Part shown: in pieces, positions 11,489-53,354 of the stretch
Layout of the letters: each line of letters begins with the position of its first letter
How positions within the stretch are numbered: position 1 is the first letter of the stretch
NCBI GenBank assembly: GCA_944391955.1
Contig: CALXVG010000005.1
Coordinates: forward strand, 1-64,000
Source: an uncultured Clostridia bacterium
Lineage (GTDB): Bacteria; Bacillota; Clostridia; TANB77; CAG-508
Direction: 5' to 3'
Length of the DNA stretch: 64,000 nt
The notes under the pieces: model-generated
The model's database searches: none
Told to the model about the DNA's origin: nothing
The model's input: only the letters and a program-made list of their open reading frames with translations
Program-made: the position numbers and the translations under genes

Positions 11489-13706
11489 AATAACCTCCTT
11501 CAAGAGCACTCTTCAATGTTAAGTTAATTACACTTCCAGCTTCTATTTGAGTATTTGATAAAACATCTTGACTAACAACTAAACCAGAGCCTTCAGCAAC
11601 AATATTTAAATCAGCTTCTTGAGCCATATTGATACATTGTTCAAGAGTTTTTCCCTTAAAGTTTGGAACTGTAACAGATGTAGCAACATTTGAATTTTCT
11701 GTATATAAGAATACATCAGCACCTTCAAATAAAGTTACACCAGTTTTAGGCATTTGATTTGTTACAATTTCATTTTCATCTACATTATCAGGAATGTGAA
11801 CAGTAAACCCAGCACTTTTTAATAATTGTTTAGCTTCTTTTATAGTTTTACCATTTAAATCTGACAATGCAGTAGTTTTATATCCAGATGAATTAGAATC
11901 TGTTGCACTAGATGTAACACCTAAATGAGGTAATATCTCTGAAAAAATCTGTGCAACAACAGGACCTGCTATTTCTCCTCCTTGGAAAGAATCTCCTTTT
12001 GGATTATATAATGCTACTAAAACTACAACTTGAGTATTAACTGTAGGAGAAAGCCCAATAAATGAAGCAACGTAAGTATTATCAGCAGAAGTAAGAGTTT
12101 CAGATGTACCAGATTTTCCACCTATAGAATAACCAGTAACATCAGCATGTTTACCAGTACCATCGCTTACAACATAATCAAGCATTTCTAGTAATTCAGA
12201 AGCAGTTTGTTCAGAAACTACTTGTCTAACTTCTACCGGTTCTGGAGTAGTAATTGCACCAGTATCAGGATTTGCAATTTTATCAATAATTCTTGGGTGC
12301 ATCAAAACACCTTCATTGGCAATAGCGGAAACCGCTGTAATAAGTTGTAGTGGTGTAACTGTAATACCCTGTCCGAAAGACATTGCAGCAAGATCAACAT
12401 CAGTAAGATTATTTTGATTATGGAAAACACTACTAGATTCACCATAAAAATCAGAATTAGTAGATGATAACAATCCAAAAGCATCATAATATTTATAAAG
12501 CGTAGGGGCTCCAATTTTCAAACCTAATTGTATAAAAGCAGGGTTACATGAATTTGCTAATGCCTGTTTTAAAGATTGATAACCATGAGGTCTACCTGTT
12601 CTCCAACAGAAGATATTTGTACCATTAATAGTTTCATAACCTTCGCAAATAAAACTACTTGTATCATTAGGAGATACAATATTTTCTTCTAAACCGACTG
12701 CTGCAGTTATAATCTTAAAAACAGAACCAGGTTCATAAGTGCTCTGTACAGCAGTATTATTCCACATTGAATACAAATAATCATTTTGTTCTTGTGCAGA
12801 AAGTGCATCCCAAGTTTCTAAGATTGTAGAATCTGTAGGCTCAAAAGGAGTATTCAAGTTATAATCAGGATAGTTACACATTGCCAAAATATTACCAGTA
12901 TCAGGTTCTATAATTATAACAGTTCCACTATCAGCTTGATTATCTATAACCGCCTGTGAAAGATATTTTTCAGCAATAGATTGAATATTTACATCTATAG
13001 TGAGATAAACATTACTTCCATTTTTAGGTTCAATATATGATTTTTGTTGGTTTGGAATTTCAGAATTTACAGAGTCTGTTAATGTAACAACTTGTCCTGG
13101 AGTACCTGCTAAAATATCATCAAGAGAATTTTCTAAACCAACTAATCCATTATGGTCAGTTCCAGTAAAACCAATCACATGAGATGCTAAAGTATTATAT
13201 GGATAATATCTTTTAACAGCAGAATCTATATTTATACCAGAATAAATTTTATTATCATCCATCCATTTCTTTAAAGCATCAATTTTATCACTTTCAACCT
13301 TTGAAGCAATTGTAACATAAGAATTTGCAGAATTAAGTTTTTCTAAAAGTTCTGTATAATCAAGTCCAAAAATTTCACTAAAAGATTGAGCCAAAAATTC
13401 CTTATCGACTTCTGTATCATCAGAATACTTTATAATCTTTGGATTAACTGAGACAGTATCAACATCTGCACTGATTGCTAAAAGTTTTCCATTTGCATCA
13501 TATATTATGCCTCGAGTAGGCTCTAAAGTTCTTGTATCGGTTTGTTGTGCACTTGCTTGTCTACTTAAATCTTCACCTTGAACAAATTGTAAAACAAATA
13601 ATTTAAAAACTAATAGAATAAGTAAAATAAGTAGAACGGCACGTGTCTTTTTTAATCTATTTTTATTATCAATAGTAGCCTTTAAAATCTTTTTAGTTTC
13701 ATTCAT
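11487..13706 (-). CDS. Class B penicillin-binding protein with two PASTA domains
   Basis: A 739-residue transpeptidase of the FtsI/SpoVD group that cross-links peptidoglycan outside the membrane. One N-terminal membrane anchor (about 23-40), a dimerization domain, then the transpeptidase: SxxK at S328-K331 (PGSVFK), SxN at S386-N388 (NSCN) and KSGT at 531-534. Two PASTA domains follow (about 611-670 and 675-733). The start is the ATG at 13706, with GGAGG 5 bases before it; an upstream in-frame ATG 15 codons earlier has no site. It is divergent from gatCAB. A paralogue with one PASTA domain lies at 33880, so this could be the SpoVD or the PbpB role; the sequence does not decide. Confidence 0.9.
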   Translation of the reverse strand: MNETKKILKATIDNKNRLKKTRAVLLILLILLVFKLFVLQFVQGEDLSRQASAQQTDTRTLEPTRGIIYDANGKLLAISADVDTVSVNPKIIKYSDDTEVDKEFLAQSFSEIFGLDYTELLEKLNSANSYVTIASKVESDKIDALKKWMDDNKIYSGINIDSAVKRYYPYNTLASHVIGFTGTDHNGLVGLENSLDDILAGTPGQVVTLTDSVNSEIPNQQKSYIEPKNGSNVYLTIDVNIQSIAEKYLSQAVIDNQADSGTVIIIEPDTGNILAMCNYPDYNLNTPFEPTDSTILETWDALSAQEQNDYLYSMWNNTAVQSTYEPGSVFKIITAAVGLEENIVSPNDTSSFICEGYETINGTNIFCWRTGRPHGYQSLKQALANSCNPAFIQLGLKIGAPTLYKYYDAFGLLSSTNSDFYGESSSVFHNQNNLTDVDLAAMSFGQGITVTPLQLITAVSAIANEGVLMHPRIIDKIANPDTGAITTPEPVEVRQVVSEQTASELLEMLDYVVSDGTGKHADVTGYSIGGKSGTSETLTSADNTYVASFIGLSPTVNTQVVVLVALYNPKGDSFQGGEIAGPVVAQIFSEILPHLGVTSSATDSNSSGYKTTALSDLNGKTIKEAKQLLKSAGFTVHIPDNVDENEIVTNQMPKTGVTLFEGADVFLYTENSNVATSVTVPNFKGKTLEQCINMAQEADLNIVAEGSGLVVSQDVLSNTQIEAGSVINLTLKSALEGGY

Positions 13707-17175: not shown

Positions 17176-17183
17176 AAAATACA

Positions 17184-17220
17184 GACCCACCTGCTGTTGC
17201 AAGGTGGGTCTTGGTTTTTT
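17184..17220. terminator. GC-rich terminator shared by gatB and the GC-rich cassette
   Basis: GACCCACCT/AGGTGGGTC (9 bp) with a 9-base loop; T run on the plus side after TTGG and on the minus side after TGTA. It is far richer in G+C than other terminators in the window and belongs in style to the minus-strand cassette that follows. The adjoining ACACCGAGGTGT (17221-17232) is itself a small inverted repeat. Confidence 0.85.
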
Positions 17221-17250: not shown

Positions 17251-17448
17251 TCACTTCGAGGAATGAATAAGATCATCTCCACTTTCTCCGAAGACCATGT
17301 CATCCACATCCTGATAAGGACGAGGAAAGGCATGGGACTCTGCGAATCTATCCGAGTCTACTTCCTCTGTCCCCCGCTTCAAAAGATCGAGACGTTTGGG
17401 ACAGACTTCCTTGTACTCACACACTTCGCATCTTTGCAGTTTCAACAT
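17251..17448 (-). CDS. GC-rich small Cys-motif protein (cassette 1)
   Basis: A 65-residue protein of unknown function. Its N-terminus carries CEVCEYKEVCPKR, a CxxC-x6-C set like a small zinc-binding knuckle; the rest is acidic with no membrane segment. Expression signals are excellent: GGAGG 7 bases before the ATG and a TTGCAT-17-TATAAT promoter. The coding sequence is close to half G+C and uses codons rare in the neighbours (CGC, CCG, GTC, TCC), while the promoter is A/T-rich like the host. This points to recent transfer. A similar cassette lies at 52681-53341. I found no family I can name. Confidence 0.7.
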   Translation of the reverse strand: MLKLQRCEVCEYKEVCPKRLDLLKRGTEEVDSDRFAESHAFPRPYQDVDDMVFGESGDDLIHSSK

Positions 17449-17478
17449 ATATATTACCTCCTAACGTGTGATTTATTA

Positions 17479-17507
17479 ATTATATCACGGATAGCTAGAA
17501 AATGCAA
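17479..17507 (-). promoter_or_regulatory. Promoter of GC-rich cassette 1
   Basis: On the minus strand TTGCAT, 17 bases, TATAAT followed by TAA, then CACAC and AGGAGG. The layout matches the promoter of the second GC-rich cassette. Confidence 0.8.
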
Positions 17508-52680: not shown

Positions 52681-52720
52681 ACACCGAGGCACCCGCTTTA
52701 GCAGCAGGTGCCTCAAGTGT
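52681..52720 (-). terminator. GC-rich terminator of cassette 2
   Basis: Stem GAGGCACC/GGTGCCTC (52686-52693, 52707-52714) extended by ACAC/GTGT, 13-base loop; on the minus strand TTTTA follows. The plus-strand edge reads ACACCGAGGC, like ACACCGAGGT beside cassette 1. Confidence 0.85.
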
Positions 52721-52746
52721 CATTGAGTTGAGAACTTCACATCCAC

Positions 52747-53259
52747 TCAGAGATTAGCTTTTTTTACAATTTCATTGTAGACATGTTCTCCCAAGGCGAT
52801 GTTTTTCAGCTTAATAGATTTTCCCTCAAATTGATTGATGATTACGTTGTAATCCTTTGCCAAAATAGGAAATCCCCTATTTTGTTTCCAAGAAACACTG
52901 TCAATGTCTTTCATGAAGATTGTCGTCTGCCATTTACCCAAGCGAGGCCGCTTGTAAACCAGCTTATCATCATAGATGAAAAGCTTGCTGAACCTACGAC
53001 GTAGGATGACAAGACACCTCACAAGGATAAAGAGCCATAGGAAGAGACTCCTAAACCCGTCGAAGATATCGACGAGATGCGGGTGCCCTTTCTCAAAAAA
53101 GAAGACAACCACATGGGGAGATACCATCTTGCTGACGAACCAGAAGAGAATGAGCCAGAGCAAGGTTTTGCCCATGTACTGGGACACCTCAAAGGGTATC
53201 GTTTTGACCGCGCATTCTTTCCGAGAGGAAGAAGTTCTCTTGTTAGTACGTGTTGTCAT
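52747..53259 (-). CDS. GC-rich membrane protein with a PH-like domain (cassette 2)
   Basis: A 170-residue protein: basic Ser/Thr/Arg N-terminus (1-20), two membrane helices (about 31-52 and 68-86), then a domain like the bacterial PH fold (bPH_2): KLFIYDDKLVYKRPRLGKW, IFMKDIDSVSWKQN and the ending LGEHVYNEIVKKA. Function unknown. GGAGG is 8 bases before the ATG at 53259, and the promoter is near consensus. G+C is near 45-50% with codons such as CGC, CTC, GTC, ACG that are rare around it. With cassette 1 it forms a pair of similar foreign-looking single-gene units. Confidence 0.75.
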   Translation of the reverse strand: MTTRTNKRTSSSRKECAVKTIPFEVSQYMGKTLLWLILFWFVSKMVSPHVVVFFFEKGHPHLVDIFDGFRSLFLWLFILVRCLVILRRRFSKLFIYDDKLVYKRPRLGKWQTTIFMKDIDSVSWKQNRGFPILAKDYNVIINQFEGKSIKLKNIALGEHVYNEIVKKANL

Positions 53260-53312
53260 GTCTTTAACCTCCTAAAATTATTGAGACAGGTGTGTGTGAA
53301 TGTACTACAATT

Positions 53313-53341
53313 TAATTATACATTAATTTACATAAAAAGGC
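53313..53341 (-). promoter_or_regulatory. Promoter of GC-rich cassette 2
   Basis: Minus strand TTGCCT, 17 bases, TATAAT followed by TAA, then further on CACACA and AGGAGG. The match with cassette 1 covers -35, spacer length, -10 and the bases after it. Confidence 0.8.
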
Positions 53342-53354
53342 AAATTTAAAACAA

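Follow-up and report, generated by a model that had tools for sequence, protein, structure and literature searches.

GC-rich single-gene transcription units with a shared promoter element in AT-rich gut Clostridia

A minority of genes in the AT-rich gut Clostridia studied here form GC-rich transcription units that share a promoter type, are old and often syntenic, encode a fast-evolving protein and keep a high GC content from the leader to the terminator. In addition, their synonymous codons are arranged on the sense strand for RNA structure beyond chance, which was shown in the discovery genus and once more outside it. The analysis began with a 64,000-nt stretch of DNA (the window), which belongs to contig 5 of G000, an assembly of 1.27 Mb in 23 contigs that is ~97.5% complete. 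In the window, two units, c1 and c2, stand out most clearly by their GC content, and an initial annotation had proposed them as members of an undescribed family of cassettes that carry different cargo behind the same style of promoter. Such undescribed single-gene units do occur, genome-wide and family-wide, but they do not behave as mobile cassettes. Together the results suggest that the class genes are shaped at the RNA level and are not recent mobile cassettes, and c2 would be one member of a native, promoter-defined set of single-gene units in this bacterial family.

The two GC-rich units of the window

All of the elements listed by the initial annotation for the two units were found as described (Table 1). 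The elements of c1 (TTGCAT, 17 nt, TATAAT, CACAC, AGGAGG, ORF and terminator) follow the same order as those of c2. In c2 a TG lies immediately 5′ of the -10 element, without the usual one-base gap, the leader contains CACACACAC, and CCTCGGTGT sits on the 3′ arm of the terminator. The pattern TTATGTNAAN{2,7}TATAAT has a single match in the window, the c2 promoter. By recognition of their sequences, we take c1 to be placed after gatB and c2 to be flanked by a holA-like gene and rpsI-rplM.

Table 1. Coordinates of the features (window positions for c1 and c2; genome:contig:positions for the others)
Feature	Position	Strand	Remarks
c2 transcription unit, promoter to terminator	52681..53343	-	
c2 -35 element	53338..53343	-	TTGCCT; 17-nt spacer to -10
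c2 class motif	53327..53335	-	TTATGTAAA, inside the -35/-10 spacer
c2 -10 element	53315..53320	-	TATAAT, then TAA
c2 Shine-Dalgarno sequence	53268..53273	-	AGGAGG
c2 gene	52747..53259	-	170 aa; GC 0.43, GC3 0.54
c2 coding-sequence hairpin	52861..52884	-	perfect, 9 bp; CAAAATAGG-ggattt-CCTATTTTG
c2 terminator	52681..52721	-	GC-rich
c1 promoter	17476..17507	-	TTGCAT-17-TATAAT; extended -10 (TGATATAAT); without TTATGTNAA
c1 gene	17251..17448	-	65 aa; CxxCx5CP motif; GC 0.47
c1 terminator hairpin	17183..17211	-	
Zinc-ribbon member	G000:C9:2347-2586		
Zinc-ribbon member	G000:C1:377503-377796		
Zinc-ribbon member	G006:C2:40536-41345		
Zinc-ribbon member L179			
Zinc-ribbon member L230			
beta-CASP RNase-like gene L074	G000:C3:991-2406		471 aa; GC3 0.37
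Gene with two Hfq-like stretches L103	G003:C1:63093-63680		GC-rich
Motif 5′ of a Spo0A-like gene L190	G001:C4, ~12,500-13,300		

The similarity between the two units is one of layout. A genome-wide search with the c2 unit misses c1 even at E<=10, so the alignable similarity that had been looked for is absent and the units share no alignable DNA; they are therefore alike in layout and not by descent. In the entire 1.27-Mb genome, the word ACACCGAGG is confined to one copy in each unit, and it had been read as a far-edge border. However, in c2 it forms the outer stem of the terminator and in c1 a mini-hairpin that precedes the terminator, and terminator sequences differ in the counterparts from two other species of the genus, G003 and G006. 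As part of a terminator or hairpin, and not conserved in these counterparts, ACACCGAGG was rejected as a recombination end. The promoter pattern itself is real, but as a trait of the whole gene class rather than of these two units: the genome contains three copies of TTGCNTTTN13-16TATAATTA, of which the third also lies 5′ of a GC-rich orphan.

The c2 protein has two TM helices followed by a beta-rich C-terminal domain, and is likely a two-helix membrane protein with a PH domain, although its AlphaFold model is of low confidence (pLDDT 52). In this it resembles the bacterial bPH_2 membrane proteins (PF03703), which also have two TM helices and a PH-like domain. Divergence keeps the c2 protein itself below the Pfam cut-off of 22, whereas its counterparts in G003 and G006 score 31.2 and 24.8. 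The gene may thus make a PH-like membrane protein of small size that perhaps acts as an envelope factor. Neither the c1 nor the c2 protein has a PHROG match, and a phage origin was rejected on this ground. For P0001, searches of viral, plasmid and phage collections and of 84,980 genomes gave no homologue at the sensitivity used.

At the c1 and c2 sites, G003 and G006 each carry a GC-rich minus-strand gene between flanks that are 64-96% identical. The CxxCx5CP motif is common to the c1 counterparts. The c2 counterparts have in common, at 16-20% identity, a basic N-terminus, two TM helices and a PH-like domain. Since pairwise BLAST gave nothing significant, c2 orthology was assigned by position, strand and architecture. 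Synteny of both units across G000, G003 and G006 speaks against a common donor or mobile cassettes, and the initial annotation itself had named such synteny as a refutation. For another five class genes, synteny holds across two or more species. A GNAT unit is missing from G000, and the site has no clean insertion junction. Because the sites are syntenic and the GNAT-less site lacks such a junction, the cassette reading is unsupported. Mobile cassettes of the integron or transposon type would have shared ends on both sides and lie at different positions, or leave clean empty sites, in relatives; the downstream side of the units shows no shared end, and the positions are conserved. Likewise, the marks of recent transfer were not found, neither drift toward host composition nor, for P0001 in the collections above, close homologues elsewhere.

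A GC-rich gene class and its promoter element

The class was delimited with a simple ORF finder in ~777 kb of G000, 360 kb of G003 and 414 kb of G006, from organisms known here from metagenome assemblies alone. GC3 is bimodal in these samples, with a median of 0.13-0.14 and a separate minority at 0.35-0.80 that comprises 11, 18 and 9 genes, respectively. The class genes are mainly short, solitary orphans, most of them without family assignment. Members that do have a recognisable product are, among others, a beta-CASP RNase, a tandem Hfq protein, a GNAT and the PH-domain counterpart. The proteins evolve quickly: five class pairs between G003 and G006 are 41-88% identical (77.5% at the c1 site and 67.8% at the c2 site), compared with a median of 89-92% for low-GC genes, and fourfold divergence is 0.30-0.59 for the class and 0.25-0.29 for low-GC genes.

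Ten class proteins tested singly gave no strong PHROG match; one class member, presumed to be the beta-CASP RNase, is matched by phrog_36352. The best NCBIfam match of the class set, to a Cas14-type MBL/beta-CASP model, presumably belongs to L074, a beta-CASP RNase-like gene. A role as defence genes was also considered and set aside, since PADLOC returned only two weak matches. Phage morons are similar in being stand-alone genes of deviant base composition with their own promoter and terminator. In contrast to morons, the class genes lie in chromosomal intergenic sites, are syntenic between species and, in the ten proteins tested, lack a strong PHROG match. Among individual members, L103 has two Hfq-like stretches in one chain and its own promoter with TTGACATAA at -35. 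A small zinc-ribbon family (WPL...C, CPxC..EH) recurs downstream of the promoter motif described below and reaches a GC3 of 0.80 in G006.

The class promoter carries TTATGTWAA 14-16 nt 5′ of an extended -10 element. An extended -10 was found for 22/29 class genes and 92/400 controls (p = 1e-8), and TTATGTNAA, on either strand within 160 nt upstream, for 22/38 class genes and 20/400 controls (p = 8e-16). The start of the motif is usually 14-16 nt, and otherwise ~24 or 34 nt, 5′ of the -10; c1 and ~40% of the class are without it. These promoters are like the Gram-positive extended -10 type (TRTGN-TATAAT) in having TGNTATAAT with a 17-nt spacer. They differ in the addition of TTATGTWAA at a fixed spacer position and in its tight association with GC-rich orphans. 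Class leaders of G000, G003 and G006 are enriched in the word TTAGC (10/29 compared with 17/400).

Because the motif was found on the discovery data, it was tested in other data. Across the whole of G000, TTATGTNAAN{4,7}TANAAT has 10 sites, eight of which precede genes with a GC3 of 0.28-0.61, c2 included. In species outside the discovery set, counting motif promoters that lead to an ORF with a ribosome site, 22/37 had a GC3 of at least 0.28, compared with 4/175 in the background (p = 2e-16). The motif lay before elevated-GC3 genes in 10/12 cases when seven more genomes, from further genera of the family, were searched, and in 2/3 cases in family f4. In family f5 mostly AT-rich genes stand behind the motif, and elevated-GC3 genes are a minority. 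Thus, as expected of a regulon, a shared cis element predicts members in unseen genomes. A multi-copy AT-rich coiled-coil-like family (MESNGIKIESELLK...) also has the motif promoter in G016 (L214, L217, L218 and L219).

The family carries one true Spo0A together with several Spo0A-like paralogues, and in G001 the motif lies 5′ of a Spo0A-like response regulator gene (L190). As a pointer to the regulator of the class, this gene is a lead only.

Base composition and folding along the transcript

High GC content is retained over time. In orthologue pairs in which either member had a GC3 of at least 0.35, both members were high in 8/8. For class pairs, which were chosen for high GC in both members and among which no high/low pairs were seen, P(AT given GC) at fourfold sites was 0.38 between G003 and G006, compared with 0.79 for normal genes (p = 2e-12), and 0.39 compared with 0.87 between G000 and G006 (p = 4e-8). 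At fourfold sites the four bases are close to equally frequent in class genes (A.25, C.23, G.22, T.30), whereas normal genes are strongly skewed (A.64, C.03, G.04, T.29). Intergenic GC is 0.25.

The rise in GC also extends beyond the coding sequence. Leader GC is 0.316 in the class and 0.179 in controls (p = 5e-7), and terminator stems have a GC of 0.56 compared with 0.30. In the first 60 nt 3′ of the stop codon, class GC is 0.43-0.45 compared with ~0.25, with p = 1.6e-16 for the first 20 nt; by 80-100 nt past the stop it is normal again (0.24). There is little difference 5′ of the -35 element (0.241 and 0.212). Since the rise spans leader, trailer and terminator, codon choice alone is insufficient, and codon or tRNA adaptation is disfavoured as the cause. 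The class shares the host depletion of GATC, CGCG and GGCC, a sign of long residence. Avoidance of RNase sites was rejected as an explanation, as no clear k-mer emerged and GATC is depleted throughout the host. Normal genes of G000, G003 and G006 strongly avoid GATC (observed/expected 0.35), CGCG and GCGC, a genome-wide pattern that looks as if it came from restriction pressure.

Class messages are also more folded than expected. Coding windows have a z of -1.31 against dinucleotide shuffles, compared with -0.38 for normal genes (p = 1e-6), and of -1.45 compared with -0.38 when protein and codon usage are held fixed (p = 1e-6). For c2, the transcript folds at -211.5 kcal/mol, compared with -163.9 (sd 9.6) for shuffles (z -4.94), and the coding sequence has a z of -4.16. 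Over the first 300 nt in the genus set, the sense strand has a z of -2.40 and the antisense strand -1.30 (p = 1.4e-7); a mid-GC control genome gave -0.96. Held-out set 2 replicated the folding signal (z -1.37 compared with -0.52 for control, p = 1.4e-3), whereas in held-out set 3 (n = 10-17) it was not above control. A clear difference between sense and antisense is confined to the discovery genus.

Perfect hairpins are in excess in the class, at 0.63/kb for stems of at least 8 bp (0.13 in shuffled sequence) and 0.23/kb for stems of at least 9 bp (0.01/kb). Compensatory pair changes are only weakly above the null (0.50 compared with 0.40, sd 0.05), and Rfam gave no match above any gathering score. 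Because pair conservation is weak, we conclude that the class shows general foldedness and no specific conserved fold. Genome-scale ordered RNA structure (GORS) is known from some RNA viruses. In GORS, too, folding exceeds shuffles along the length of the RNA without a single conserved fold, as it does for class coding RNA against protein- and codon-preserving shuffles in the genus and held-out set 2. The class differs in consisting of promoter-defined chromosomal bacterial mRNAs with a large GC shift.

Origin and meaning of the class

Genes of odd GC content are routinely called horizontally acquired. Old acquisitions from mid-GC gut bacteria, with promoters adapted first and composition not yet drifted to that of the host, would account for a codon usage like that of a mid-GC genome, for patchy presence and for those members that are recognisable accessory genes. 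We regard this origin as unlikely, in that counterparts have diverged to ~20-43% identity and all are still GC-rich, with fourfold GC-to-AT change at half the host rate. The host-specific avoidance of GATC, CGCG and GGCC is already in place, leader and trailer are GC-rich as well, and a native promoter motif predicts class genes across genera. A local mutational process acting without selection, through hairpin template switching or transcription-tied GC-biased conversion, is rather unlikely too. The hairpin excess without a conserved fold, the fast evolution and an effect that tracks the transcribed unit would all fit such a process, but the ribosomal genes, despite their high transcription, are not rich in GC (rpsI GC3 0.106). 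Furthermore, sense folds better than antisense in the genus, and RNA-level selection is therefore favoured.

More improbable is that chromosomal Xer recombinases inserted or moved the units, with TTATGTWAA as the XerD half of a dif-like site at one unit end. Xer-using elements and dif modules carry single orphan genes of foreign composition, and the class cargo is of this kind. In many bacteria the XerD arm of dif is TTATGTTAA/TTATGTAA, and TTATGTWAA equals its core (PMC2731167). In contrast to those elements, the class has one half-site at the edge and long-term synteny. A second site is not found downstream (3/38 compared with 39/965), and aligned motif matches show neither an XerC arm nor the 6-bp central region upstream, which makes an Xer origin less likely. 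The motif is moreover locked 14-16 nt from the -10, the units are long resident, and the empty GNAT site has no clean junction. One candidate for a conserved dif-like site, G000:C1:247791, was discarded as coding.

The GC oddity is old, goes with one promoter element and is present in untranslated parts, and the composition therefore looks selected at the RNA level. The explanation that we favour, with a little less than even confidence, is a native, co-regulated and promoter-defined set of genes, with selection for GC-rich, folded messages that may serve stability. A common DNA-binding regulator would switch the class genes on together, and selection on the message itself would keep it GC-rich and folded. 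The likeliest purpose would be for such a message to outlast the AU-rich bulk of mRNA while cells grow slowly or lie dormant, an idea that we raise because these genomes encode Spo0A (14/14 genomes searched).

No description of such a gene class was found in the open-access literature; each component has known analogues, and we know of none for their coupling. If confirmed, the class would provide a rare bacterial example of coupling between base composition, promoter class and mRNA folding. With TTATGTWAA-TGNTATAAT as a simple sequence handle, a hidden set of genes can be listed throughout a family of uncultured gut bacteria. More tentatively, we propose that these bacteria keep two tiers of mRNA, one AU-rich and loosely folded, the other promoter-marked and fast-evolving, with whole transcripts selected to be GC-rich and folded. 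If this is true, the two tiers would give the cell a built-in second level of message stability or handling.
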